A stretch of DNA of 48,487 nt, from contig JACAFF010000029.1 of NCBI GenBank assembly GCA_013388455.1, positions 1-48,487 of the forward strand, read 5' to 3'. The translations under genes and the position numbers were made by a program. The notes beneath the pieces are model-generated. The model did no database searches. It was not told where the DNA came from and worked only from the letters and a program-made list of their open reading frames with translations. Positions 2,584 to 25,306 of the stretch are shown here, in pieces; the stretch's first letter is position 1, and each line of letters begins with the position of its first letter. Source of the stretch: Nitrospirota bacterium. Lineage in GTDB: Bacteria > Nitrospirota > Thermodesulfovibrionia > Thermodesulfovibrionales > SM23-35.

Positions 2584-4596
2584 TCACCCTCTCTTGACAA
2601 CACTTTCAATAAAATTCTCCAGAGCTTTAATGCATTCCATGTCATAATAAATTTTATATTTATTCTCAGCGATCTTATTTGAGATGCTTTTTCTCAATTC
2701 ACAGTCATTGCCAATACGGACAGCTAAATCTATATATTCTTCAAGCGTAGAAGTAATGCATTCTTCTAAACCTATCATTTTCAAGATGGCAGAGCAATCA
2801 CGACTTCTCATCAAATTTCCGGGAAAAGTAACAATTGGTAAATTAAAATTGATGGCTTCAATTGCTGAATTACAGCCAGACCATCCAATAGGATCGAGAA
2901 ACACATCAGCGATTTGATAGAGTGAATTGTATCTATGATTATCAAGAAATGGAAGAAAAGTTATATAATCACTTGCGTGGAGATTTAATCTATCAAATGC
3001 CTTATAAAGCCTGAGTCGTAGTTGTTCGGTAATATATTCACTTTTAGGATGTTCTGAGAACAGGAATCGGCAATTGTTTACACGTTTTGCAATCAAGGGG
3101 AATATCTCATCATACTGTGGTAAAAATTTGTAAAGAGACTGACAGCAGTGATATAGCAAAGAATCATCAGGCAGATTGAAACTTTGTCGATTAATATTTG
3201 TTACTTGCGTTTCTAAAGGTGTTATGTAGGCTGAAAGATTCGGTAGTCGCACAAGTTTTTCAGTGTAATGGGTATCACCATCAGGTGGTTCCATTAGAGC
3301 ACTGCTCAGGAAATAATCAATACTTGGAAGTCCTGTTGTCGTTGGATGACCCCATGAAACGCATTGCACAGGGGCGAGTCTTAGAGATGCCAGCTTTAAA
3401 GATAAAGGATCCATGCCAATTTCTGGATAGATTATAATGTGCAGGTTATCATTGCGAATTATTTGAGATAATTTTTCAAAGGAATTGTTTTTTAGAAATC
3501 TTTTACAGTATTTTGCAGCAGTTTTAGTCTCATCATCATCTTTTGTCCATGTATAGTATCCAAATAGCTCAAAACGTTCCTTATCGATTTTCTCCATCCA
3601 TCCCTTAATAGGAATTTTCCATACAGAATGATTATAGAAATAACCTGATATGAATCCTATACGAATACGTTCTTGAATATCCGGCATTACAGGCTTTTCT
3701 GCAAGCTCAGGATAACGTGAGGACATTATGTTACAAATTAAATCTCCATAAAGTCTCTGGAGTTCGACATCATTCAATCCCTGGTAAGCTAAATAAAAAG
3801 GTTGAATTGTCCCGATCGCTACAGAAGCTTCTTCAATCCGGGAAGAATTTTTTGGGTATATCATATTTTTGAGTTCAATTAATTCGTTTTGATAATTTTT
3901 ACGTGATGAAGATATACTTGATTCATCCTTGTGGATAATAGGAATTTGTGCAATAGAATGTGCAAATCTCGCAATAAAAGAATGAGGCCTTTGTTTGATT
4001 ACTTTGTTGAGTGTGGCTAATGCTTCTTCCTGTTTTCCCTCTTCCATAAGTGCTGTCCCAAGATTAAAAAGGATTTCGGGAGATTCAGGTTTGGAATTTA
4101 GAGCTTTTTTATAATATTTAATAGCCTCTCTAATATTGCCAGTTTCCTGAAAAACAATTGCAAGATTACTATTTGCTTCGGGATGCTCCGCGTTAATTTT
4201 TAAAGCCTCCTGGAAACACTCGATAGCTTTATCAATTTGTATTTCATATTTGAAAAAGATAATGCCAAGATTTACCAATGCATCTGCCATATGTGGATTT
4301 AACTTCAATGCATTTTGGTACGATGATATTGCTTTATCAAAAAATCTTTTGCCCTGATATGCAAGACCAAGATTGTAATATGCATGGGCATCAGATTTTA
4401 TTAGAATTGCTTTTTTTATGTATTCGATTGCTTTGTCATAATTACCGTATTGACAATATAACACTCCGAGGTAATGCAAGGCATAAAAGTTATCCGGTTC
4501 AGAAATTAATAATTCTTGATAAATATTTTCTGCCTCAATGAGTCTGCCTGCTTGATGATACTGGATTGCTTTTTTCAGAACATCGGAAGTTTCCAT
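2584..4596 (-). CDS. TPR - GT41 (O-GlcNAc-transferase/SPINDLY-like) glycosyltransferase, paralogue 1
   Basis: This 670-residue protein has about six TPR units at residues 1-210 (pattern 'YYNLGLAYQGKRFFDKAI'). A GT41-type C-terminal catalytic region spans about 300-665. Family landmarks are HSVWKIPIKGW, IYPEIGMDPLSLKLASLRLAPVQC, GHPTTTGLPSIDYFLSS and FLDPIGWSGCNSAIEAI. GT41 enzymes transfer a sugar from a nucleotide sugar to Ser/Thr of proteins, with the TPRs choosing the substrate; bacterial members are usually cytoplasmic. The paralogues at 8743-10758 and 21932-23848 share the architecture, and this copy is the most diverged (HPTTTG for HPDTTG, SRDCS for QRHSA). No Shine-Dalgarno sequence precedes the ATG; a TATAAT lies 8 bases before it. 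Confidence 0.9.
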   Translation of the reverse strand: METSDVLKKAIQYHQAGRLIEAENIYQELLISEPDNFYALHYLGVLYCQYGNYDKAIEYIKKAILIKSDAHAYYNLGLAYQGKRFFDKAISSYQNALKLNPHMADALVNLGIIFFKYEIQIDKAIECFQEALKINAEHPEANSNLAIVFQETGNIREAIKYYKKALNSKPESPEILFNLGTALMEEGKQEEALATLNKVIKQRPHSFIARFAHSIAQIPIIHKDESSISSSRKNYQNELIELKNMIYPKNSSRIEEASVAIGTIQPFYLAYQGLNDVELQRLYGDLICNIMSSRYPELAEKPVMPDIQERIRIGFISGYFYNHSVWKIPIKGWMEKIDKERFELFGYYTWTKDDDETKTAAKYCKRFLKNNSFEKLSQIIRNDNLHIIIYPEIGMDPLSLKLASLRLAPVQCVSWGHPTTTGLPSIDYFLSSALMEPPDGDTHYTEKLVRLPNLSAYITPLETQVTNINRQSFNLPDDSLLYHCCQSLYKFLPQYDEIFPLIAKRVNNCRFLFSEHPKSEYITEQLRLRLYKAFDRLNLHASDYITFLPFLDNHRYNSLYQIADVFLDPIGWSGCNSAIEAINFNLPIVTFPGNLMRSRDCSAILKMIGLEECITSTLEEYIDLAVRIGNDCELRKSISNKIAENKYKIYYDMECIKALENFIESVVKRG

Positions 4597-4703: not shown

Positions 4704-6482
4704 TTAGGTTAATTTTCTGATTTCCTCCTCAACTCTCTCGATTATTGTCTTCCAGTCACCCAATGCAGGCTGTCTGAATAACCTCATGGTGGGATACCAG
4801 GGACTATCATCTCTATCCAGCATCCATCGCCAATCAGGAACAAAAGGAAGAAGAGTCCATACAGTTTTACCTAATGCCCCTGCAAGATGAGCTACTTCTG
4901 TATCTACTGATATAACTAAATCAAGATTTTGTATAAGAGCAGCAGTATCTGCAAAATCATTAAGTTCATCTGTATAGTCTAAGATCTTTTCACCGTCAGG
5001 GTGGCTTAATATTTGGTAAGAAGCTTCTCCTTTCTGTAGGCTATAAAAGTTAATATCAGTGATTTTCAATAATTGTGAGAGGACATCCAATGTACATGAT
5101 CTATTATAATCTTTTCTCAATTCAGGGCTACCAGCCCATGTGAGCCCCACATTTAATTTGGAATTTTTTAGTATTCTGCCATGCCATTTCTGAACCAGTT
5201 CTGCATCAATTTTAATATAAGGTATTGGAGAAGGTATATCTTCAATGGTAGTATTGAATAGAAGCGGTAGACTCAAAAGGGGACAATAAAAATCAAAGTC
5301 GGGTAGTTGGGATTCTCTTAAAAAAATATCATTAACACCTTCAACCTTTTGTAATAAACTTATTAATTCCTTCTCACATTCAACAATAACCTTTGCCCCA
5401 CGTTGAGCAATTAAGGGGACATAGCGGATAAATTGAATAGTATCTCCGAAGCCTTGTTCTGTATAAATCAGAATAGTTTTACCATTGATATCAGAACCAT
5501 CCCATTGAGGTTTATCAAATGTTCGCTTTATTGCAAGATTACCTAATTTCCATCGCCATTCATATCCTTTCCATCCCTCTTTAAAATTTCCTGATAGAAG
5601 ATTTAATAGTGCAATGTTCCAGTGTGCCTCAGCATATTCATTATCAATTGAAATCGCTTTTTTGTAATAATCCATAGCATTATTAAATTGCCCTTTCGCT
5701 AAATGGACATTGCCGAGATTGTAATACGCCATTGCATAATCTGGTTTGATTTTTATCGCAGTTTTAAAAGATTCTAAGGCTTCATCATATTGCCCCAATT
5801 CTTTATATGCTATTCCAAGATTCAGATGTGCTTTTGGATTTTCAGAATTTAGTGCAATGGCTTGTTGATAAGATAAGATTGCCTTATCGTGTTGCCCTAA
5901 TTGCTGAAAGGCAACGCCCATATTGAAATGAGCCTCTGTGAAATCTGGATTAACTGATGTAGCTTTCTGATAATGTTGGACTGCTTCATCAAAAATACCT
6001 TTTTCTTGTAAAAACAATCCGAGTGCATAAAAAGATTCTGCACTCGGACCAACCTTGATAATATCTAATAATTCTATTTCAAAATTTAAATTCTTTCCAG
6101 CTAATGGATGGTTAGCATCCAGTGTTATCTCATTTTCTGCAACATTAGTTACAGTTATGACATCTTCGCCACCATCGTTTCGCTTTATTATTATTTTAAG
6201 ACCAAGTTCAGGATTCATATCTTTTGGGAATTCTTCTCGCTTTATTACTTGAACTAATTCTTTTTTGTATTCTCCAAATGCTTCTGATGCAGGAACCGTA
6301 TATATTTTCTTCTCTCCTATATTCATTCCAATGACTAATTTTTCAAAGAATGGAAGAAAACTGTTTTCACCTACTTTTAAAATGATAGGTTCTTTTCCAA
6401 CAGAGCTGTCGTGAACAGTTCCGTCTTCAAATTTACATGTGAAGTGAAACTTTACCGTATCTCCAAATTTTACTGGTGCTAT
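4704..6482 (-). CDS. FKBP (SlyD-like) - TPR - GT9-like glycosyltransferase fusion, probable ATA start
   Basis: The protein is about 592 residues if it starts at the ATA codon 6482-6480. Residues 1-148 form a complete SlyD-like FKBP prolyl isomerase (start APVKFGDTVKFHF, later DANHPLAGKNLNFEIELLDI). About 150-300 hold four to five TPR units. About 310-592 resemble the heptosyltransferase-like GT9 domains found on TPR proteins (GFGDTIQFIRYVPL, VISVDTEVAHLAGALGK, LLPFVPDWRWMLDRDDSPW). The first in-frame ATG (6326) would delete the first third of the FKBP fold. A perfect AAGGAGG (6494-6488) sits five bases before the ATA, an in-frame TAA lies just upstream, and no ATG, GTG or TTG lies between. 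Either ATA is the start or an ATG was mutated or misread. I infer a folding helper coupled to a TPR-guided sugar transferase. Confidence 0.82.
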   Translation of the reverse strand: MAPVKFGDTVKFHFTCKFEDGTVHDSSVGKEPIILKVGENSFLPFFEKLVIGMNIGEKKIYTVPASEAFGEYKKELVQVIKREEFPKDMNPELGLKIIIKRNDGGEDVITVTNVAENEITLDANHPLAGKNLNFEIELLDIIKVGPSAESFYALGLFLQEKGIFDEAVQHYQKATSVNPDFTEAHFNMGVAFQQLGQHDKAILSYQQAIALNSENPKAHLNLGIAYKELGQYDEALESFKTAIKIKPDYAMAYYNLGNVHLAKGQFNNAMDYYKKAISIDNEYAEAHWNIALLNLLSGNFKEGWKGYEWRWKLGNLAIKRTFDKPQWDGSDINGKTILIYTEQGFGDTIQFIRYVPLIAQRGAKVIVECEKELISLLQKVEGVNDIFLRESQLPDFDFYCPLLSLPLLFNTTIEDIPSPIPYIKIDAELVQKWHGRILKNSKLNVGLTWAGSPELRKDYNRSCTLDVLSQLLKITDINFYSLQKGEASYQILSHPDGEKILDYTDELNDFADTAALIQNLDLVISVDTEVAHLAGALGKTVWTLLPFVPDWRWMLDRDDSPWYPTMRLFRQPALGDWKTIIERVEEEIRKLT

Positions 6483-6487
6483 ATGAC

Positions 6488-6494
6488 CCTCCTT
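6488..6494 (-). promoter_or_regulatory. Shine-Dalgarno site supporting an ATA start
   Basis: AAGGAGG on the minus strand is a full match to the anti-SD of 16S rRNA. It lies five bases before the ATA codon that opens the complete FKBP reading frame. It is 162 bases from the first in-frame ATG, too far to serve it. Confidence 0.75.
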
Positions 6495-6781: not shown

Positions 6782-7456
6782 TTATTGTTGTTTCCTTCTT
6801 TCGAAAAAGTCAAAAACATCCTGATCTATTTGTTTTCGCGAAGCTGGCCGAGTTGGTTGTTTTTCTATTTTAGCAGGTTGTGTAGTAGGTTGAGTAGATG
6901 TTGATGGTTGTGTTTGTGTAGAAGAGGTAGAGGCTGGCCCCTTATATTTTTTCCGCGATTCTGCTAAGTCTATTACAATCCTTTCTTCACCCCTCACCAT
7001 TACAACTTTATCTGTTTCAATTTCTTTAAGAGTAAATCCACTTAAAGTATCACCCTGCCTCAGGGTGATTTGTCTTTTTCCTCTACCGGGTGTGCTGTAA
7101 GGTTCTTTTAAATCTTCAAGATAGGCTAAACTTAGGTTCTCTGATATCAATGTCCCATACAGCACAAACTCGGGTTTGGGAAGTGGTTTTTCTTCTTTTT
7201 TTTCAATCGGGATTTTTCTTTCGGGGTGGAATAAATTTAACTCGCCAATTATTAAGAAGTCAGATAAAGAAGGAAGGTCAGATGTAGAAGGTGTTTCTAC
7301 TGATATCTGCTCTTTTGCCTTTGCTGAATGTGAATAGTTAATCTTAAAATTAGTCGATGAAAAAAATATGTAATTTGATAATGCTATGATAAAAACGATT
7401 AAGAGTATATTTATCAATGTAAAATTATGAATAGCAGTCCTCATCTTAATTTTCAT
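6782..7456 (-). CDS. GspC-like (type II secretion / pilus assembly) inner-membrane protein
   Basis: The 224-residue protein has one N-terminal membrane anchor (about residues 12-33, LINILLIVFIIALSNYIFF) and a periplasmic part. This contains the GspC homology-region pattern: FHPER, then FVLYGTLISENLSLAYLED, then QGDTLSGFTLKEIETDKVVMVRGEERIVIDL. A Thr/Ser/Pro/Gln-rich linker follows (about 175-205). GspC links the inner-membrane platform of type II secretion to the secretin. The PDZ domain of classical GspC is absent, as in short or PilP-like members. No other gsp gene is in the window, so assignment rests on sequence pattern alone. ATG codons at residues 1 and 5 are both possible starts. Confidence 0.6.
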   Translation of the reverse strand: MKIKMRTAIHNFTLINILLIVFIIALSNYIFFSSTNFKINYSHSAKAKEQISVETPSTSDLPSLSDFLIIGELNLFHPERKIPIEKKEEKPLPKPEFVLYGTLISENLSLAYLEDLKEPYSTPGRGKRQITLRQGDTLSGFTLKEIETDKVVMVRGEERIVIDLAESRKKYKGPASTSSTQTQPSTSTQPTTQPAKIEKQPTRPASRKQIDQDVFDFFERRKQQ

Positions 7457-11343: not shown

Positions 11344-14300
11344 CTAATTTTCTTCTGTCAAAAGTTTTTCACATCTATCAAGCAAAATTGGAAAACGTTC
11401 ATCCTGTGTTCCTGTATCTAAAGCAGTCTCAATTATAGAAATAGCATAATTCAAATTTCCTGCTTTAATCAGAAATTCAGCAAATTCATAAAGATAATTA
11501 TCATAGGTCATTCTTTTTTTTAATAAAGAAAGATACTTTTTGGCATCATCTTTTTTATTTATGCAACAGTATACCAGCGCAAGCATCAACACAACCATTG
11601 GTAATTCTGGATATTTTGATAAAGTGTCTTTTAGAAGAGATATGCATTTTTCTGCTTTCCCGATGCAAATTGAACAGGCTGCGTAAAGAGGTATAAATTC
11701 TCTTCGTTCCTCAGGATTTTTTTCGAGTTTAAGTGCTGTTTCGAGTGAGTCTATAGCCTCTTGAAACTTTGACTGACGGTAGTAACTGTTCGCCAGACCA
11801 AAATATGCCTTTGGAAAATCTGGTTTTACCTCACTCAATTTTTTCCAGTATCCAAGGGCTTCATCAAACCTTTCGAGTTCAGAAGCCTGGACTGCTAATT
11901 CATAAAGTGCAATAAAGTCTTTCTCTCCACGCTCTGATAGTTTTAATTTGCCAAGGATATAATAATCTTCTCCTTTTGTAAAAATCTTATCTTTTTCGAG
12001 TTTTCCGTAATGATGGACAGGAATATCAATAATTATATTTTTAATACCTGCTTTTTGCATTGTCATTTCCACAAACTCATGGACAGGAAATTCAAACCTG
12101 ATATGCGGATTATTAGGAAATATACGAACTTTGTCACTCGGAAACCAGCCTGATCCTGCTTCTTGTTTGATATAACTACCATCATTCGGTCTCCATCCGA
12201 TAGTAGACACAGGCAGGACATAATTTCTCGATGTGATAGTAAATCCAGCAGATTTGTAAGCTGGAAGAGACAGTAATTTTCTTAAAACATCCTGATCAAA
12301 AGGTGCGATAACCTCATCAGCATCGAGCACAAGTATCCAATCTCCTGATGCTTTTGATATCGAATAATTTCTCGCTTCTGAAAAGTCACCTGTCCATGCA
12401 AAATCAAATACCTTTGCACCAAATGCCTTGGCTATGTTTTTTGTTCTGTCAGTAGAACCTGTGTCAACAACGATCATCTCATCAACAAGAGGCTTTATAC
12501 TATGCAGACATTTGCCTATATATTTTTCTTCGTTTTTGACAATCATGCATAAAGATATAGTAGGTGAGTAACCGGAGATTACTTCGCCGCTTCGCTCCTC
12601 GCAATGACCCCCCTTTAATTCCTCCCTAACTAAGTCTTTCGGTCCTATTTTATTCCTTATCCCGAGAGCAATAGAAAGTGTATCATCATCTATTCCAAAA
12701 GCTACCATCGCATCTTCATAAATTTCCATGGCTTCTTCATATTTCTCTTGTTGCAAGAGAAGATCAACAAGCACGTATTTCAGTCTTCTATTAGATGGAT
12801 AAAGGTCTATTGCTTCTTCAAATATTTTTTCAGCTCTTTCCTGTTGTGAAAGTGAAACAGCAACAGCGTGATAATTAATTGCAACATTTTCAACTGTTGG
12901 TGATAGGATAAAAGCTCGCTCGAAAAGATTAATTGCTTCTTCTTTATAATTTTTATACCATTTAATTGCACCTAAATTTGCGTATGCTTCTCCATAACTT
13001 CTGTCGAGATCGATTGCTTTAGTAAAAAACTTTTCTGCTTCATCAAATAATCCTTTGTTATAGTAAATAAGACCTTTTAGGTTCCAGGCTTTCGCATATT
13101 TATTATCTAAATTGATAGCTTCATCTGCATATTTTTCTGCTTTATCGTAAATGTTAATGCCGTTTTTACAGATGCTGGCAAGTTCAAACCATCTTGCGTC
13201 TTTTTTATGATTTGCTGACATTTTTTCAAGAATATCGTATGCTTCAATATATTTTCCATTTTCTGTCATATACATAACGAGAGCAAAATGTAGTCGTTCA
13301 TCAAAAGGGGAATATTTCAATCCTTCATAAATAGTTTGAATAGCATTGTTTTTTTGTCCTTGCTGTGCGAGTTCATCAGCATAGCGTAATGAATTTAAAG
13401 TAATAAGTTTTTTCCTTGTTTCTTCATCAACATCGTTTGCGCTCCATTTATCAATGAAATGTTTTCTGTCAGCAGAAAGTATTTTGTTATAGGCAATGGT
13501 GTCTTCTCTGATCTTTACCACATTTATTTTATCAGCTTGAACTATCTTATGGACAACAATATCCCCTGCTATTAAAGATCTGTAATTATTTAAAGAAGCC
13601 CTCAGGCAGTAATCATCAAGTGTATATTCGGGTGTTTGGAACTGTTCATCAAAAAGTCCATTCTTTTCTAATAATTCACGTTTGATTAAAAAACATTCAC
13701 CAATTAATTTCTTTTGTTCTACATATCGATATCTATTTTTCTGTCTAAAAGATAATGCGAATTCATCAAGTCCGATTAAGCCATATGGAGTAATTTTTTC
13801 TTCGTCCTTTTGACTAAACGACGAGATTGCTTCTTTGCTTCGCTCCTCGCAATGACCACTCTTTGATTCCTCCCTTATTGCTTCTTTCCCACTCTCCACT
13901 AACCACTTACCACTCACCACTGTATTTACCCCCTGCGGTCCTTCAACATTCGTCATCATAGGACCCACCAGAGCAATATCAGGATTACTCATTGCACACT
14001 CAAGCAATCCCGTAAGCCAGCCGTCTGTGACAATCACATCGTCATTGATTAGTACAATATAGTCACCTGATGATTTATTTATGCCATTGTTAGCAGCCTT
14101 AGCATAGTTGAGGTTACTTTGAGGTTTCGATTCCCCCTCACCCTTGCCCTCTCCAGTTAGGGGAGAGGGGATTCCCCTCTTGAGAGGGGTGCAGGGGTGT
14201 GTTTCCCCTCTTGAGAGGGGTGCAGGGGTGTGTTCCTCTTCTTTGCCGAGGGGTTCCCATTCCAATCCCCTCCCTTGAGGGGAGAGTGAAGTCTCCTTTG

Positions 14301-17300
14301 GAACTATCACAATCTCATGCGGCTCAAGAGTTCTTCTCTTTATACTTTCAATGCATTTATTTGAATTATCCGAATTATCCGAAGCGAGAACTACAACAGA
14401 TACCTTTGATTTGCTTTCATTAAGCCTTTTTATCATATAAAGGGTAGAGAGAAGCTGTTCAGATTTTTTATCTACACTTCCTATCTCGATTGCGGACTCA
14501 AGAAGAGATATAGCAGAATCAATTTGCCCGAAGCTTGTCAATGTATTTGCATAATGAGAAATGAAATTTTTGTAGTCAAAATTTAATATTTTTAATTTTT
14601 CAATAATTTGTTGTGCGTTTATTTTATTACGTAAAGAGAAATATCCAAGAGCTAAAAGGGCGAGTGCCTTAAGGTGTTCTGGATTTTCTTTAATAAATTT
14701 CTCAAGCCTTGAAACTGCCAGAGCAGATTCCCCTAAGTAAAGCTCACATGAGGCAGCCTGTATTACAGCTTCTTTTAATTCAGAATCGAGCTCTAATGCC
14801 TTAATGTATGAGGAAAGGGCTTCATTAAATTTACAAAGATTGAAATGATTGTTGCCTTTACTCAGATAGGCCCTTCCAAAATCAGGATTCAAATCTAAAA
14901 CTTTTTCCAGATATTCTAAAGCCTCTTCAAATTTTCCAAGACTTGAAGCATGAACAGCAAGCTCATGTAATGCTCTAAAGTCCGAATTTTTATCCTCGAA
15001 AACCTTCTTTTTAGCCATCTCATAATATATTTGTGCCTTTGCATTTTCTCTTTCACGGTTGAGTGTTCCATAGTGATGAACTGGAATATCAGAACTTTCG
15101 ATTTTTATGCCATTTTTTATAAGAGAAGGCTCTATTCTTTCGTGAATGGCAAAGTCAAACTTGATGCCAGGTTTATTTGGAAATAATCTAACCTTTTCCC
15201 CAGGAAACCATCCTGTTCCTGCTTCTTCGGAATAATTTCCATCATTTGGCTTCCAATCAATATTATTCAGTTCCATTATATAGTTACGTGTAGTAAAGGA
15301 ATAGGCGACTAATTTCGTGGATTCCGAGGTTCCATGATACGCAGGTTTCGTTTCGTCATCGCGAGCGGAACGTAGCAATCTCGCTTTTTCTTCTTTTCCC
15401 TTTACTAATTCTTTAAGCCTCTCATGATCCTTCGGCGATATCACTTCATCAGCATCAAGGATAAGTATCCAATCACCTGTAGCCTTAGAGAGTGAAAAAT
15501 TACGAGCTTCAGAAAAGTTATCATTCCATCTAAAATCGAAAACTTTAGCGCCGAATTCTTTTGCAATCTCTTTTGTCCTATCAGTAGAGCCTGTATCTAC
15601 TATGATTATTTCATTAACCAAACCTCTAACACTCAAAAGACTATGCCCAATATTTTCCTCCTCATTTTTAACAATCATACAGAGAGAAATGGTTGCTTTT
15701 GCTGTGTCATCGAGAGCGAAGCGTGGCGATCTCATCCTTTCATCAGCACTCAGCTTCCTTCTACATTCCTCAAGAAGTGTTTGTATTTCTTCAGTTACAT
15801 AATTCCCCTCCATCGCAGCTTCAACGAGTTTATTTGCATAAATTAGTTGTCCACTTTTGATTAATGTCGATGCGAAACTTGTAAAAAATCTCGAAGCATC
15901 AAAATTTGTTTCATCCAACTTTTTAGCATAAATAAAGCCTTCTTTTTTTCTGTCAGTGCAAAAATAAGCTGCTGAGATTAGACCAAGTGCAGGAGGATAG
16001 GAAGGTTCTTTTTTAAGTAGTCTTTCAAGCAATTTAATTGCTGTATCACAATTGCCTGAACAAAATTCAAACTTTGATAGTAAAATCAAAGCATCTTGGC
16101 AATCCGGTTCAATAGCTAAGGCAGTTTTTATGGCAGTAATAGCATTTTCGTACATCCCAAGTTCAAAATATGAGATACCAATGCCAATATATGCTTTTGT
16201 AAAATCGGGTTTAAGCTTTGCAAGTTGTTTCCAGTATTCTAAGGCTTCTTTATGATGCCCGATTTCTGAAGTTTGAACTGCAATTTCATAAAGTGGGGCA
16301 AAATCCTTCCATTGGTTCGCTGTGAGCTTTTTCTTTCCAAGTTCGTAATAATCTAATTTTTTTGAACTTTGCTTTTCGATATTAAGTTTGCCATAGTGAT
16401 GTATAGGAATGTCGCACTTTATTATCTCATATCCAGCTTGCAATAAAGAATATTCCACTAATTCATGTACTGGAGACTCAAAGCGAATACGGCTATCGTT
16501 TGGGAAAAGCCTTACCTTTTTGCTCGGCACCCATCCAGTTCCAGCCTCTTCTTCAAGATATTGCCCATCATTTGCAGTCCACTCCATACTGACGTTATTT
16601 TTATAATTTCTGGTTGTAAAGGAATAGGCGACTAATTTCGTGGATTCCGAGGTTCCATGATACGCAGGTTTCGTTTCGTCATCGCCGACACTTTTAAATT
16701 CGTCATCACGAGCATCTTCTTTATTAGTCATTGCTAACCCGAAGGGCATGGCAATCTCGTCTTTTTCTTCTTTTCCCTTTACTAATTCTTTAAGCCTCTC
16801 ATGATCCTTTGGCGATATCACCTCATCAGCATCAAGGATAAGTATCCAATCACCTGTAGCCTTTGATAGCGAAAAGTTTCTTGCTGCTGAGAAATCATCT
16901 GTCCATTTAAAATCAAATACCTTTGCACCAAAGGCACCAGCAATATACTTAGTCCTGTCAGTAGAACCTGTATCAACAACTATTATTTCATCAGCAAGAG
17001 AACCGACTTTGCTGAGACAATTTACGAGATTACTCTCTTCATTTTTTACAATCATACATAAAGAAATAGTTGATTGGGTTTGTTGCGTTTCTTGAGTTTG
17101 TTGTGTTTTTCGAGGTTTCTTAATTTTTTTCTTTTTTCCAACTTTAGCCTTAAGTTTGCCCTTTGCTTTAATCATATCTCCTTCATTACTGGTCATCGCA
17201 AGCGAAGCGTGGCGATCTCGTTGTTTATTATTGTTAGCATCCCACCCTATGACAATCTCTTTTGGTCCTATCTCATGTCTTACCTTCAGGGCAAACGAGA

Positions 17301-20300
17301 GTGTTTCATCATCAATTCCGCAAGTGCGTAAAGCCTCTTGAAGGACATCCATAGCTTCGTGTTTTTTCCCCTGTTTCAAAAGAAGTTCGGCAAATGAATA
17401 GCGCAATTTTTTATGTGAAGGGTATATGTCTACGGCTTCACCCATTATTTTTTCAGCGTTATCTAATTTTTGGAGAGTAACTGCTGAATCAAAAAATTTA
17501 TCGATTGTCTCATTATGTGCTGGATTTAAAATAAATGCCTTTTCATATAGTGTGAAAGCTTCTTCTTCTTTGCCCTCATCCCATTTTAACTGACCGAGAT
17601 TTAAGTAAGGCTCGCTATAACTTCTGTCAGACTCAATAGCTTGATAGAAGAAATTTTCTGCATCACGGAAATTTTCTTTTTTAAGTGCTATTAATCCCTT
17701 TAAGTTTAGAGCTCTTGAAGCTGTTTTATTTAACTCAAGTGCATTGTTTGCAATTTTTTCAGCATCATCTAATTGATTCATTAAAACTTTACAATATCCA
17801 ATTAGAGCAAGCCTGTCAGCATTATCTTTTAGCGATTCGGGCATGTTTTCAAGTATATTAATGGCCTCGGTTAATCTATTCTGTTCTATTAAAATTTCTA
17901 CAAATGTGAAGTAATAATTATTTTCATCTGGTTGCAATTCCTTAACAGCAGAAAGCACTTGTATAGCTTCAGAATATTTACCTTTTTGTCTTAACTCATT
18001 TGAAGCTGAAATCGAATTTAGAACCACCATTTTTTTACCGAGTAGAGTCGAAGGATGAAGATTATTCCATTTATCAAAAAAGAGTTTGGATATTTTAGGG
18101 AGCGAAGAGCCTATTTTACCGCCCCGTCCTGCCAGAGTTCTATCTCGATGAGAATAGACAAAAACGTCTCCAGCAATAATATGCCTGTATCCTTCAACCG
18201 CTGACCTCAGACAATAATCATTATCTGCAAAGTCAGGGATTTCGAGTCTTTCATCCATAAAACCGATTTTCTTCGGCAAATCTCTTCTGAATAACATGCA
18301 GAATCCGTTTAGGTTTACTGTCTCGATCCGTCGATGCCGATTCCGTTTCCTGAAAGCCCCGGCAAAAGAGTGAAGGTTGTCATTGCGAGCACGCGAAGGG
18401 TGCGTGGCAATCTTGTCTTTATATGCTTCTTTTCCACTCTCCACTAACCACTTACCACTCACCACTGTATTTACCCTCTGCGGCCTATCTACATTTACCG
18501 TCATCGGAGCGACAATGCCAACATCCGGTGAACTATTCAAATGTTCCAGCATACTTGATAACCATCCTTCGGTAACAATCACATCATCGTTTAGAATAAC
18601 GACATACTCACCCTTTGCTTCAGCAATGCCTTTATTGAATGCTTCGGGGTAAGTGAGTTTGCTATGAGAGATTGCTTCGTCGCTACGCTCCTCGCAATGA
18701 CGAGGAGGGGAGGTGTCATTGCAAGCACCCGAAGGGTGCGTGACAATCGCGGCCTTCACGTTTCCTACAATACGAGTGCTTGCATCTTTTTTTACAATTT
18801 CCTCTAACCCTTGTAGATGTCCATGAGAAACTTCAACAGGCACTAAGATAATTTCATGCGGTTCAGGGGTATGCTTCTTGATGCTTTCAAGACATTTGCT
18901 GAGATAAGTTGCATCTTTAGAAATAAAAATAATGATCGAATTTAAACTTTTTTTATATTGAACTGGATAAGCAATTTTATCTTCATCTAAAGAAATTCTC
19001 TGCTTTTCTTCTTTTTTAAAGCTTTGTATATTAGATTTTCGCAAAAAATCTCTGTCAAAGGAAGAAACCTGCACCGGTTCTTTTAATAAAATTTCATCTC
19101 GCATTTTATTCAGAATATCTTTTATCGGTTTATATGGTCTATAGTCGCCAGTTTTTTTAGTCAGTTCTTCAACCTTTTTTAAACCGCACTCAATGTCATC
19201 TAATGTAGCGAGGTATTTTTGAATATATTTCTGTCGAATCTGCATATCTTCTTGAACGCGTGTCGACTGATCTCTATGTTCTGCACTTTGTGGTGAAAAG
19301 AGGTATAACCCAAGAAATTCGGGAATATGCAACATTTCTGTTCCTTCAGCGATTCGAAGCCAGAATTCCCAGTCACCTGAGGATGTAAAAGATTCATCAA
19401 AGTATCCATATTTTTCGTGTAAAGATTTGCGCCACATGGGTTGTGGACCTACGAAACAACCGAGTGTGAGAAATTCTCTGCTGTAATCAAGCCAACGGTA
19501 GGCACCTATAGGAGTGTGATTTACGAATGTTTCATTCTCTTTTGCAGTAATTATGACATCTGCATATACAAGACCAATATCAGGTGACCCATCAAGAATA
19601 GATGCCATATGTTCAAGAGCATCTTTTCGATGTCTATCGTCGGCGTTAGCATTTGTAATATATTTTCCTCTGGCAGCCTTAATTCCACGATTCCATGCTT
19701 TATAAATTGTTTCACGCTCTTCAGTGCGGATATATACAATATTCTTGTAATTTTTTTGAAATTCCTCTACGATTGATTTTTCATTTTGCTGTGATCCGCT
19801 ATCTACGACAATTATTTCAAGTTCTCCTTTTTGATAAAGCGTTTGGTTCACAAGATCTTCAAGGCAGCCACTTATGAACCTCTCTGAGTTATAAGTGGAA
19901 ACTATTGCTGAAACCTTGATCCTTTTATCCTGCTGAATATCTTCAAAAGCATTAGACTCTGAGACTGTAGAGACTATGTCCAGATTTTTCAAAGCCTGCA
20001 CTATTTCTTCATCATCTGGATTTTTTTCGAGATAGGATGAATAGAGGTTCTTTACAGAATCAATCTGTTCCAGAGAAGTCAATACCTCTCCGCATTTTAA
20101 AACTATATTCCTGTCAGAAGGGTTAATTTCTAATGCTTGAGTAAGATAGTCAATGGCTCTGTCAACATCTCCCTTTTCCCACAAATCTGATCCGAGCTTT
20201 AGTGAAAGTTCAGCCTTAAGAGCAAGGAGTTCCATAGAATCATGATCCTGATTTAAAGCATCTGTAATGGCACGTTCAGCCTCATCAAGATTTCCTGAGT

Positions 20301-20337
20301 CGATTAATTGTTTGATATTTTGGACAGCGTTCTCCAT
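11344..20337 (-). CDS. Giant mosaic TPR / six-GT2-domain glycosyltransferase (2997 aa)
   Basis: One uninterrupted frame encodes alternating blocks. They are TPR (1-115), GT2-1 (about 140-370; NANADDRHR), GT2-2 (about 463-728; ILNDDVIV), TPR (745-1020), GT2-3 (about 1090-1315; LILDADEVI), TPR, GT2-4 (about 1549-1757; LILDADEVI), TPR, GT2-5 (about 1979-2265; LINDDVIV), TPR (2300-2560), GT2-6 (about 2594-2779; LVLDADEVI) and TPR to the end. Domains 3, 4 and 6 share ISLCMIVKNEE and VVDTGSTDRTK; domains 2 and 5 share a second type. GT2 enzymes transfer sugars from nucleotide sugars, and the Asp-rich motifs bind the metal and donor. No membrane segment is seen, so it is likely cytoplasmic. About 0.5 kb of the gene consists of interspersed repeats read in frame. 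No ribosome-binding site precedes the ATG. I infer sequential assembly of a glycan, or glycosylation of proteins. Confidence 0.88.
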   Translation of the reverse strand: MENAVQNIKQLIDSGNLDEAERAITDALNQDHDSMELLALKAELSLKLGSDLWEKGDVDRAIDYLTQALEINPSDRNIVLKCGEVLTSLEQIDSVKNLYSSYLEKNPDDEEIVQALKNLDIVSTVSESNAFEDIQQDKRIKVSAIVSTYNSERFISGCLEDLVNQTLYQKGELEIIVVDSGSQQNEKSIVEEFQKNYKNIVYIRTEERETIYKAWNRGIKAARGKYITNANADDRHRKDALEHMASILDGSPDIGLVYADVIITAKENETFVNHTPIGAYRWLDYSREFLTLGCFVGPQPMWRKSLHEKYGYFDESFTSSGDWEFWLRIAEGTEMLHIPEFLGLYLFSPQSAEHRDQSTRVQEDMQIRQKYIQKYLATLDDIECGLKKVEELTKKTGDYRPYKPIKDILNKMRDEILLKEPVQVSSFDRDFLRKSNIQSFKKEEKQRISLDEDKIAYPVQYKKSLNSIIIFISKDATYLSKCLESIKKHTPEPHEIILVPVEVSHGHLQGLEEIVKKDASTRIVGNVKAAIVTHPSGACNDTSPPRHCEERSDEAISHSKLTYPEAFNKGIAEAKGEYVVILNDDVIVTEGWLSSMLEHLNSSPDVGIVAPMTVNVDRPQRVNTVVSGKWLVESGKEAYKDKIATHPSRARNDNLHSFAGAFRKRNRHRRIETVNLNGFCMLFRRDLPKKIGFMDERLEIPDFADNDYCLRSAVEGYRHIIAGDVFVYSHRDRTLAGRGGKIGSSLPKISKLFFDKWNNLHPSTLLGKKMVVLNSISASNELRQKGKYSEAIQVLSAVKELQPDENNYYFTFVEILIEQNRLTEAINILENMPESLKDNADRLALIGYCKVLMNQLDDAEKIANNALELNKTASRALNLKGLIALKKENFRDAENFFYQAIESDRSYSEPYLNLGQLKWDEGKEEEAFTLYEKAFILNPAHNETIDKFFDSAVTLQKLDNAEKIMGEAVDIYPSHKKLRYSFAELLLKQGKKHEAMDVLQEALRTCGIDDETLSFALKVRHEIGPKEIVIGWDANNNKQRDRHASLAMTSNEGDMIKAKGKLKAKVGKKKKIKKPRKTQQTQETQQTQSTISLCMIVKNEESNLVNCLSKVGSLADEIIVVDTGSTDRTKYIAGAFGAKVFDFKWTDDFSAARNFSLSKATGDWILILDADEVISPKDHERLKELVKGKEEKDEIAMPFGLAMTNKEDARDDEFKSVGDDETKPAYHGTSESTKLVAYSFTTRNYKNNVSMEWTANDGQYLEEEAGTGWVPSKKVRLFPNDSRIRFESPVHELVEYSLLQAGYEIIKCDIPIHHYGKLNIEKQSSKKLDYYELGKKKLTANQWKDFAPLYEIAVQTSEIGHHKEALEYWKQLAKLKPDFTKAYIGIGISYFELGMYENAITAIKTALAIEPDCQDALILLSKFEFCSGNCDTAIKLLERLLKKEPSYPPALGLISAAYFCTDRKKEGFIYAKKLDETNFDASRFFTSFASTLIKSGQLIYANKLVEAAMEGNYVTEEIQTLLEECRRKLSADERMRSPRFALDDTAKATISLCMIVKNEEENIGHSLLSVRGLVNEIIIVDTGSTDRTKEIAKEFGAKVFDFRWNDNFSEARNFSLSKATGDWILILDADEVISPKDHERLKELVKGKEEKARLLRSARDDETKPAYHGTSESTKLVAYSFTTRNYIMELNNIDWKPNDGNYSEEAGTGWFPGEKVRLFPNKPGIKFDFAIHERIEPSLIKNGIKIESSDIPVHHYGTLNRERENAKAQIYYEMAKKKVFEDKNSDFRALHELAVHASSLGKFEEALEYLEKVLDLNPDFGRAYLSKGNNHFNLCKFNEALSSYIKALELDSELKEAVIQAASCELYLGESALAVSRLEKFIKENPEHLKALALLALGYFSLRNKINAQQIIEKLKILNFDYKNFISHYANTLTSFGQIDSAISLLESAIEIGSVDKKSEQLLSTLYMIKRLNESKSKVSVVVLASDNSDNSNKCIESIKRRTLEPHEIVIVPKETSLSPQGRGLEWEPLGKEEEHTPAPLSRGETHPCTPLKRGIPSPLTGEGKGEGESKPQSNLNYAKAANNGINKSSGDYIVLINDDVIVTDGWLTGLLECAMSNPDIALVGPMMTNVEGPQGVNTVVSGKWLVESGKEAIREESKSGHCEERSKEAISSFSQKDEEKITPYGLIGLDEFALSFRQKNRYRYVEQKKLIGECFLIKRELLEKNGLFDEQFQTPEYTLDDYCLRASLNNYRSLIAGDIVVHKIVQADKINVVKIREDTIAYNKILSADRKHFIDKWSANDVDEETRKKLITLNSLRYADELAQQGQKNNAIQTIYEGLKYSPFDERLHFALVMYMTENGKYIEAYDILEKMSANHKKDARWFELASICKNGINIYDKAEKYADEAINLDNKYAKAWNLKGLIYYNKGLFDEAEKFFTKAIDLDRSYGEAYANLGAIKWYKNYKEEAINLFERAFILSPTVENVAINYHAVAVSLSQQERAEKIFEEAIDLYPSNRRLKYVLVDLLLQQEKYEEAMEIYEDAMVAFGIDDDTLSIALGIRNKIGPKDLVREELKGGHCEERSGEVISGYSPTISLCMIVKNEEKYIGKCLHSIKPLVDEMIVVDTGSTDRTKNIAKAFGAKVFDFAWTGDFSEARNYSISKASGDWILVLDADEVIAPFDQDVLRKLLSLPAYKSAGFTITSRNYVLPVSTIGWRPNDGSYIKQEAGSGWFPSDKVRIFPNNPHIRFEFPVHEFVEMTMQKAGIKNIIIDIPVHHYGKLEKDKIFTKGEDYYILGKLKLSERGEKDFIALYELAVQASELERFDEALGYWKKLSEVKPDFPKAYFGLANSYYRQSKFQEAIDSLETALKLEKNPEERREFIPLYAACSICIGKAEKCISLLKDTLSKYPELPMVVLMLALVYCCINKKDDAKKYLSLLKKRMTYDNYLYEFAEFLIKAGNLNYAISIIETALDTGTQDERFPILLDRCEKLLTEEN
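12575..12608. repeat. Family-A palindromic repeat inside the giant gene (before GT2-6)
   Basis: GAGATTACTTCGCCGCTTCGCTCCTCGCAATGAC is read by the minus-strand gene as HCEERSGEVIS (near residue 2580). It sits directly before GT2-6 (TISLCMIVKNEE). Confidence 0.85.
13823..13856. repeat. Family-A palindromic repeat inside the giant gene (GT2-5)
   Basis: GAGATTGCTTCTTTGCTTCGCTCCTCGCAATGAC is translated as HCEERSKEAIS, near residue 2166. It lies in GT2-5 just after the family-B segment. Confidence 0.85.
13881..13930. repeat. Family-B repeat inside the giant gene, copy 1 (GT2-5)
   Basis: A C/A/T-rich stretch (CCACTCTCCACTAACCACTT followed by ACCACTCACCACTG) is read as VVSGKWLVESGKEA. The same DNA and peptide occur at 18425-18475 at the equivalent position of GT2-2. 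Confidence 0.8.
14131..14286. repeat. Family-C G/C-rich repeat cluster inside the giant gene (GT2-5)
   Basis: This about 156-bp block contains two adjacent 30-31-bp copies of a CCCCTCTTGAGAGGGG palindrome followed by TGCAGGGGTGTG (14172-14231). It also has CCCTCACCCTTGCCCTCTCC and a closing CCCTTGAGGGGAGAG. It is read in frame as a Pro/Gly/Glu-rich insert (HTPAPLSRGE, then IPSPLTGEGKGEGE) directly before the NDDV motif of GT2-5. Its G/C content and codon use are unlike the surrounding gene. Confidence 0.85.
15293..15486. repeat. Long near-identical block shared by GT2-3 and GT2-4 (copy in GT2-4)
   Basis: Positions 15293-15362 are identical over 70 bp to 16616-16685, and 15384-15486 match 16761-16863 with two substitutions. 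The rest of the two modules is clearly diverged, so these segments were recently duplicated or converted. Confidence 0.85.
15355..15382. repeat. Family-A palindromic repeat inside the giant gene (GT2-4)
   Basis: GTCATCGCGAGCGGAACGTAG...CAATCTC, in the orientation opposite to 13823, is read as ARLLRSARDDE (near residue 1655) after the DADEVISPKD motif. Confidence 0.82.
15706..15733. repeat. Family-A palindromic repeat inside the giant gene (before GT2-4)
   Basis: GTCATCGAGAGCGAAGCGTGG...CGATCTC is read as MRSPRFALDD (near residue 1539), immediately before the TISLCMIVKNEE start of GT2-4. Confidence 0.82.
16616..16863. repeat. Long near-identical block shared by GT2-3 and GT2-4 (copy in GT2-3)
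   Basis: This is the partner of 15293-15486. The two near-identical stretches are separated here by about 75 bp of repeat material (16686-16760), against about 21 bp in the other copy. Confidence 0.85.
16678..16758. repeat. Cluster of family-A repeat fragments inside the giant gene (GT2-3)
   Basis: Three GTCATYGC/GTCATCAC starts (16678, about 16702 and 16727) are followed by one complete arm (16727-16758). Translated, they give DEIAMPFGLAMTNKEDARDD, a stretch with no counterpart in GT2-6. Confidence 0.75.
17192..17219. repeat. Family-A palindromic repeat inside the giant gene (before GT2-3)
   Basis: GTCATCGCAAGCGAAGCGTGG...CGATCTC is read as RDRHASLAMT (near residue 1043). It lies upstream of a Lys-rich linker that leads into GT2-3. 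Confidence 0.82.
18379..18413. repeat. Family-A palindromic repeat inside the giant gene (GT2-2)
   Basis: GTCATTGCGAGCACGCGAAGGG...GGCAATCTT is read as KIATHPSRARNDN (near residue 646). It directly follows the family-B segment, as in GT2-5 but in the other orientation. Confidence 0.82.
18425..18475. repeat. Family-B repeat inside the giant gene, copy 2 (GT2-2)
   Basis: The same CCACTCTCCACTAACCACTT-type stretch as 13881-13930 is again read as VVSGKWLVESGKEA (near residue 632), after VNVDRPQRVNT. Confidence 0.8.
18668..18748. repeat. Paired family-A repeats inside the giant gene (GT2-2)
   Basis: Two inverted arms (18668-18701 and 18715-18748) are translated as HCEERSDEAIS and IVTHPSGACND (about residues 530-557). 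They lie directly before the segment leading to the NDDV motif of GT2-2, the same place where family C is inserted in GT2-5. Confidence 0.88.
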
Positions 20338-24779: not shown

Positions 24780-25208
24780 TTATAAAATTTCTACAAGCTC
24801 GATGTCTACAGTCAAATCTTTTCCTGCTAATGGATGATTTTTATCAAGTGTTACAGTTTTGTCAGTCACTTTAACTACAGTTGCAAGATTATGATCAGAA
24901 CCTTCTTGAGATAACTGCAAATATTGTCCAACTTCGAATTTAAAATCAGCAGGGTATGTATTCCTATCTTCTTCTACAACTAATTCTTTTATGTGAGGGC
25001 CGAATGCCTGCTCCGCAAGAATTTTTATAGTTTTGGATGAGCCTGGAGTCATACCGATTAATGCCTCCTCTATATCCGGGAACACCTGCCCAGATCCTAA
25101 AGCGATTTTCATTGGTTCATCATTTAAAGTGCTGTCAAAAACTGTCCCATCTTCAAGTTTTACCGTATAATTCATTTTTATAAGATCACCATATTTTGCT
25201 ACTCTCAT
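24780..25208 (-). CDS. SlyD-like FKBP peptidyl-prolyl cis-trans isomerase
   Basis: The product is 142 residues from the ATG at 25208, which follows AAAGGAGAT at good spacing; an upstream in-frame ATG at 25226 would put the ribosome site inside the gene. The N-terminal FKBP strand (YGDLIKMNYTVKLEDGTVFDST), the flap insert region (EDRNTYPADFKFEVGQYL) and the closing DKNHPLAGKDLTVDIELVEI are the SlyD pattern. It catalyses proline isomerisation and acts as a chaperone in the cytoplasm. The His-rich metal-binding tail of E. coli SlyD is missing. It resembles the FKBP domain fused to the glycosyltransferase at 4704-6482. Confidence 0.88.
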   Translation of the reverse strand: MRVAKYGDLIKMNYTVKLEDGTVFDSTLNDEPMKIALGSGQVFPDIEEALIGMTPGSSKTIKILAEQAFGPHIKELVVEEDRNTYPADFKFEVGQYLQLSQEGSDHNLATVVKVTDKTVTLDKNHPLAGKDLTVDIELVEIL

Positions 25209-25306
25209 TTTATCTCCTTTCTGCATGTTAATAATTATTTATATTTTAACAATCAAAAAAATCTGTTGTAAATTCATTCTTATGAGGTTTTTTTTACTAA
25301 TAATTT

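Follow-up and report, generated by a model that had tools for sequence, protein, structure and literature searches.

On the minus strand of a 48,487-nucleotide contig from a Nitrospirota bacterium (hereafter the window, the whole stretch of DNA analyzed), a single gene encodes an FKBP domain of the SlpA/SlyD type, a TPR array, and a GT9-type glycosyltransferase domain. The fusion is conserved in related genomes, its parts have recognizable folds, and one FKBP lineage is reused on several enzymes. From these features we infer chain gripping, a protein acceptor, a transferred sugar, and export. We propose, with about an even chance of being right, that the FKBP and its insert-in-flap (IF) domain form the front end of a TPR-guided, cytosolic GT9 protein glycosyltransferase and grip its unfolded acceptors, the transferase activity itself being predicted.

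The fused gene and its domains

From 6497 to 4707 on the minus strand, a single stop-free frame covers 597 codons from stop to stop, and the fusion protein has 592 residues when read from the ATA at 6480-6482. An earlier note on this DNA had described a SlyD-like FKBP, TPRs, and a heptosyltransferase-like domain in one frame, and the frame, together with Pfam and fold matches, agrees with that description. The features of the gene are as follows.

6488..6494, minus strand: ribosome-binding site AAGGAGG, assigned from the sequence
6480..6482, minus strand: probable ATA start codon, the sole plausible start after the in-frame stop
6045..6482, minus strand: FKBP domain of the SlpA/SlyD type, residues 1-146 (Pfam FKBP_C; SlpA 2m2a/4dt4; model strands)
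About residues 70-131, inside the FKBP domain, minus strand: IF chaperone domain (FKBP and IF strands in the model)
5547..6044, minus strand: TPR array, residues 147-312 (Pfam TPR models; model helix pairs 148-312; matches to consensus TPR and OGT TPR)
4707..5531, minus strand: GT9-type domain (heptosyltransferase fold, GT-B), residues 318-592 (PF01075; 3tov, WaaF, WaaC, and TibC fold matches)
5442..5444, minus strand: codon of Asp347 in the EQGFGDT motif, candidate catalytic base (invariance; role by analogy with WaaC and TibC)

The stretch from the upstream stop to the FKBP of the fusion gene contains no ATG, GTG, or TTG, and the ATA, which follows the strong site AAGGAGG by 5 nt, aligns with the initiator Met of free-standing FKBPs. 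Thus, the gene likely starts at ATA, a rare start codon. The mechanical open reading frame from the first ATG (4704-6326) would cost the FKBP domain its first 52 residues; a gene caller restricted to ATG, GTG, and TTG places the start at that ATG, 6326, with the same loss.

The domain assignments of the earlier note held up in Pfam, where all three domain types scored above cut-off: FKBP_C (PF00254) with 56.9 bits against 21.1 over residues 5-138, TPR families, and Glyco_transf_9 (PF01075) with 22.3 bits against 22.0, which is marginal by sequence. For the C-terminal 294 residues, Pfam gave GT9 alone, plus a Peptidase_S77 match at E 0.12; a GT41 catalytic domain was absent from this part. The structure of the joined domains, which the earlier note had proposed to predict, was modeled by AlphaFold2 from 63 sequences with a mean pLDDT of 91.2 and a pTM of 0.76, and the GT domain modeled alone from 50 sequences reached 90.2 and 0.89. 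The GT domain model matched the GT9 structure 3tov (Z 19.5, rmsd 2.8, 248 aligned), WaaF 1psw (Z 18.3, rmsd 3.2, 245 aligned), WaaC 2h1h (Z 17.4, rmsd 3.2, 236 aligned), and TibC 4rb4 (Z 16.5, rmsd 3.1, 242 aligned), which bears out the marginal Pfam call. These were followed by three plant NDH-complex chains at Z 15.7-16.4 and then a fall to 12. With the whole model, SPINDLY and OGT stood at the top, and SlpA and FKBP51 (5omp) were also present. A sequence search of the PDB with the GT domain returned nothing meaningful.

Asp347 is invariant in both alignments in which it was followed (7/7 sequences in A1 and 50/50 in A3), and the 50 sequences of A3 contain no invariant or near-invariant Cys. 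Purely by analogy, Asp347 may be the counterpart of the catalytic bases of WaaC and TibC; in WaaC this base is Asp13. In TibC, it is Asp110 (PMC4358343).

The fold matches also bear on whether the GT9 domain is a heptosyltransferase of lipopolysaccharide or capsule, with TPR and FKBP as assembly adaptors. WaaF and WaaC are the strongest matches of known activity, and RfaE domain I, a step to ADP-heptose and the only one found, scored above cut-off in the source genome. However, TPR followed by GT-B is the layout of the protein glycosyltransferases OGT and SPINDLY, TPR-GT41 enzymes are among the neighbors, and the protein heptosyltransferase TibC matches nearly as well as WaaF and WaaC. We consider a role in lipopolysaccharide or capsule quite improbable.

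Occurrence and ancestry of the fused FKBP

In 20 genomes of the same Nitrospirota family (genomes are labeled G and loci L), we searched for the same fusion, as the earlier note had advised. FKBP-TPR-GT9 genes, in this order and at 42-55% identity, were present in 6 of the 20, which are independent assemblies: G000, G002, G006, G007 (two genes), G013, and G017. The remaining 14 had no fused FKBP, and fused copies made up 9 of the 43 FKBP matches across the family. An assembly or frame artifact joining two genes might be suspected from a draft genome of 44 contigs and an unusual ATA start, but the recurrence of the join at such identities in independent assemblies leaves that explanation almost no chance, and we rejected it. 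The join is thus genuine and not the assembly error that the earlier note had named as its refutation.

Two loci were set aside. At L045 in G017, a free FKBP (3289-3747) lies about 200 bp ahead of a TPR-GT9 frame; an open frame of 734 residues was listed there, but on translation stops separate both genes, so the pair was not counted as a fusion. This FKBP falls in a free clade with the window gene at 24780-25226 (support 100/96); hence, it does not represent a split form of the fusion, and split neighbor genes were rejected as the ancestor. In G057, a long frame of 816 residues precedes an FKBP; its upstream part had no domain-query match and looks noncoding. As a separate observation, the sole FKBP_C match in G006, a genome listed as 100% complete, is the one within the fusion.

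The same type of FKBP also occurs in other architectures. Contig C14 of the source genome carries TPR-GT9-FKBP-GT2, and G007 carries an FKBP-sulfotransferase (PF00685, 31.6 bits against a cut-off of 22), located at L041 13525-14682 and likely starting at GTG, not ATG. With a model built from the eight fused FKBPs (alignment A4), 395 genomes of the phylum were searched; in a separate step of the occurrence searches, three candidates were scored per genome. Six fused genes ranked first at 226-233 bits, the best free FKBP scored 204.6, and the C14 copy came lower at 194.2. Among the matches listed, all accepted fused rows belong to one family; G017 lies outside the 395-genome sample, its fusion coming from the 20-genome search. 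In a wide genome collection, an FKBP accompanied only one of the best 79 TPR-GT9 loci, that on the Nitrospirota contig of G006, and 78 were without it, which indicates that TPR-GT9 enzymes generally work without an FKBP. Viral contigs that were searched gave no match. In open-license PMC literature, we found no description of an FKBP-TPR-GT9 architecture and nothing apt on TPR glycosyltransferases.

To trace the ancestry of the parts, groups for the tree tests were set by the fusion status of the genes and independently of the trees. The FKBP set held 55 rows, and 8 under 100 bits (7 of the FkpA type and the IF-less G007 copy) were left out, leaving 47. On this tree the 8 fused rows needed 2 changes versus 7.5 in shuffles (0/500 as low), and fused FKBPs as one clade were not rejected (p-AU 0.50); when the long C14 row was removed, the other 7 formed one clade with modest support (75/61). 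Of GT9 rows, 226 passed the length filter, 84 entering a first tree and 46 a second. In the 46-domain tree, the 8 FKBP-bearing rows needed 6 changes versus 7.5 in shuffles (39/500 as low), and a single clade of FKBP-bearing GT9 domains was rejected (p-AU 4e-55); the same test without the most distant row, a choice made after the tree was seen, gave 0.013. Similarly, the G007 fusion at L043 5396-7408 shares 57% identity with the G006 fusion in the FKBP and 39% in the GT domain. Since the fused FKBPs cluster and their GT9 domains do not, one FKBP lineage has become attached to, or has remained with, catalytic domains that differ, by swaps or by repeated losses.

The FKBP pocket and the IF domain

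By sequence, the best solved relative of the fused FKBP is E. coli SlpA (2m2a/4dt4), aligned to 2m2a over residues 6-141. The earlier note had called for the FKBP catalytic residues, and the outcome was mixed: the Asp and Phe are kept, whereas both Tyr are replaced by Phe, FKBP12 Y26, D37, Y82, and F99 corresponding to F14, D25, F69, and F134. The D23 and F128 equivalents are each conserved in 7 of the 8 fused FKBPs. The Y13 equivalent is Phe in 7/8 fused versus 0/39 free FKBPs, and the Y63 equivalent is Phe in 5/8 fused versus 4/39 free FKBPs. The L40 position and the residue before the Asp drift in fused copies. The NHPLAG loop retains an invariant Asn in all eight fused rows and is exact in four.

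Of the 9 fused FKBPs of the family, 8 retain the IF domain, as do all 8 fused rows of the FKBP tree. In FKBP18 and SlpA, deletion of the IF abolishes or nearly abolishes the anti-aggregation activity, and SlpA also lacks a His-rich tail (PMC11013033). The fused FKBP has no such C-terminal metal-binding tail, its frame continuing straight into the TPR. In a G007 paralogue (L043 465-2249), the IF domain and pocket are lost and the GT9 domain is retained, which argues against a universal holdase or an indispensable role of the FKBP.

These residues also bear on an isomerase reading, in which the FKBP would work by true prolyl isomerization, not by gripping, and would control the geometry of prolines within or close to the glycosylated sites. 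The pocket is mostly kept, and in Thermus SlyD Y13F retains 92% and Y63F 76% of activity, while substitutions of Y63 increase the affinity of the IF domain about fivefold (PMC5034536). On the other hand, a gain of catalysis would not call for the Tyr-to-Phe change by which the fused clade is recognized, two positions drift as noted above, and the IF-less G007 paralogue has lost the pocket. We judge such a catalytic role unlikely. Because the Thermus substitutions keep most activity and those at Y63 raise IF affinity, the fused FKBP may possibly, by this analogy, be tilted toward holding; plain isomerase activity is also compatible with the substitutions.

The FKBP might instead serve intramolecular folding, stability, or oligomerization and never meet the acceptor, a role that would fit its presence on enzymes whose catalytic folds differ widely and the G007 copy that shrank with no loss of its GT9 domain. 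The N-terminal beta-barrel of TibC, also needed, may likewise be structural (PMC4358343). Yet a mere scaffold would need neither the IF, kept in every fused row of the FKBP tree, nor the invariant Asn of the NHPLAG loop, and close TPR-GT9 paralogues without an FKBP look intact. This role is improbable in our view.

We favor the reading in which the FKBP holds acceptor chains. The earlier note had suggested an acceptor protein that is unfolded or contains proline, a view favored by the IF in nearly all fused FKBPs and by the module on several enzymes; the IF-less G007 paralogue weighs against it. The occurrence of the same FKBP on other modifying enzymes suggests that it would hold unfolded chains during modification.

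Neighborhood, likely acceptors, and proposed function

Three further features of the window surround the fusion.

2584..4596, minus strand: TPR-GT41 (OGT/SPINDLY-like) glycosyltransferase (PF13844, 2.1e-28)
6782..7456, minus strand: GspC-like (type II secretion) gene, adjoining a TPR-GT9 gene wherever found
24780..25226, minus strand: free-standing FKBP of a clade found in the glycosyltransferase islands of four genomes

The free FKBP noted earlier is present, its end lying at 25226 rather than at 25208; each of the four members of its clade sits inside the glycosyltransferase island of its genome. The window holds three genes of the TPR-GT41 type, one identified by Pfam and two by similarity to that one. 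It also encodes, at 11344-20337, a 2,997-residue protein with GT2 domains and TPRs, with a counterpart of 2,976 residues in the G007 island (L041 4325-13252).

The GspC-like gene directly adjoins a TPR-GT9 gene at 7/7 loci (the window, L043, L044, L050, L051, L052, and L056), an adjacency biased by choice as the loci were fetched for GT9. Its TIGR01713 match (E 5.4e-7) is below the family cut-offs, and a PDB search with its alignment gave no match. With these loci chosen for GT9, the neighbor gives a hint of acceptors leaving by type II secretion. Related small genes lie near the GspC-like gene at L051 7706-8047 and L052 6977-7303; one scores 20.9 for Pfam HSP20 against a cut-off of 20.8 and the other has no match, and they are possibly another chaperone in the island. 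Near the fusion, at 1135-2556, the window encodes a HEAT-repeat protein with a signal-like start; in G017, its homologue (L038 1887-3467) is the gene directly upstream of the fusion. This protein is a possible acceptor or partner. Flagellin is the best known bacterial O-glycosylation target; none was found in the source genome, and it was therefore rejected as an acceptor there.

Several known systems share parts of this design. E. coli SlpA (FkpB) and SlyD have the same FKBP fold, IF insert, and NHPLAG-type loop, but they are free-standing, whereas the fused FKBP is the N-terminal domain of a glycosyltransferase, with no His-rich tail and a Tyr-to-Phe pocket. OGT and SPINDLY (GT41) have a TPR superhelix before a GT-B domain in common with the fusion; their catalytic domain is GT41, whereas that of the fusion is GT9, with an added FKBP. 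In FKBP51/52, the FKBP also precedes TPRs, and FKBP51 is among the fold matches, but they have no transferase and are not known to have an IF insert. TibC and the bacterial autotransporter heptosyltransferases have the GT9-like fold in common; they carry a beta-barrel and a four-Cys iron-finger and form a dodecamer, in contrast to the TPRs, FKBP, and absence of invariant Cys in the fusion, which is known as a single-chain model. TibC modifies a secreted protein (PMC4358343). The closest catalytic relatives are TPR-GT9 glycosyltransferases, widespread over phyla, which differ from the fusion in lacking the FKBP. In the best reading, the fusion would function as OGT or TibC does, with SlpA built in; by the features tested, it is neither GT41 nor of the TibC family.

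In the mechanism that we propose, the fusion would be a cytosolic TPR-GT9 protein glycosyltransferase with an exchangeable chaperone module at its front end. The IF part would grip unfolded stretches of an acceptor, probably a protein destined for export, the FKBP pocket would handle its prolyl bonds, and the TPR superhelix would guide the chain to a GT9 domain that would transfer heptose or another nucleotide-linked sugar, with Asp347 as the likely base. Glycosylation would take place in the cytosol, before export. In favor of this reading, the FKBP module is shared by GT9, GT9+GT2, and sulfotransferase enzymes, and the whole-model matches are led by TPR-guided protein glycosyltransferases. 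A broader form of the proposal, to which we hold tentatively and at somewhat less than even chances, is that one FKBP-IF lineage may be an exchangeable, acceptor-presenting front end for these unrelated cytosolic enzymes, so that a single polypeptide would both grip and modify unfolded, export-bound proteins.

Outside a few adhesin systems, how cytosolic glycosyltransferases reach sites on export-bound proteins before folding is largely open. With a transferase that would carry its own binder of unfolded chains, gripping and sugar transfer would be separable by domain deletion on one polypeptide. That glycosyltransferases and sulfotransferases share one FKBP lineage suggests a presenting module of general use, which may be a tool for widening acceptor range.
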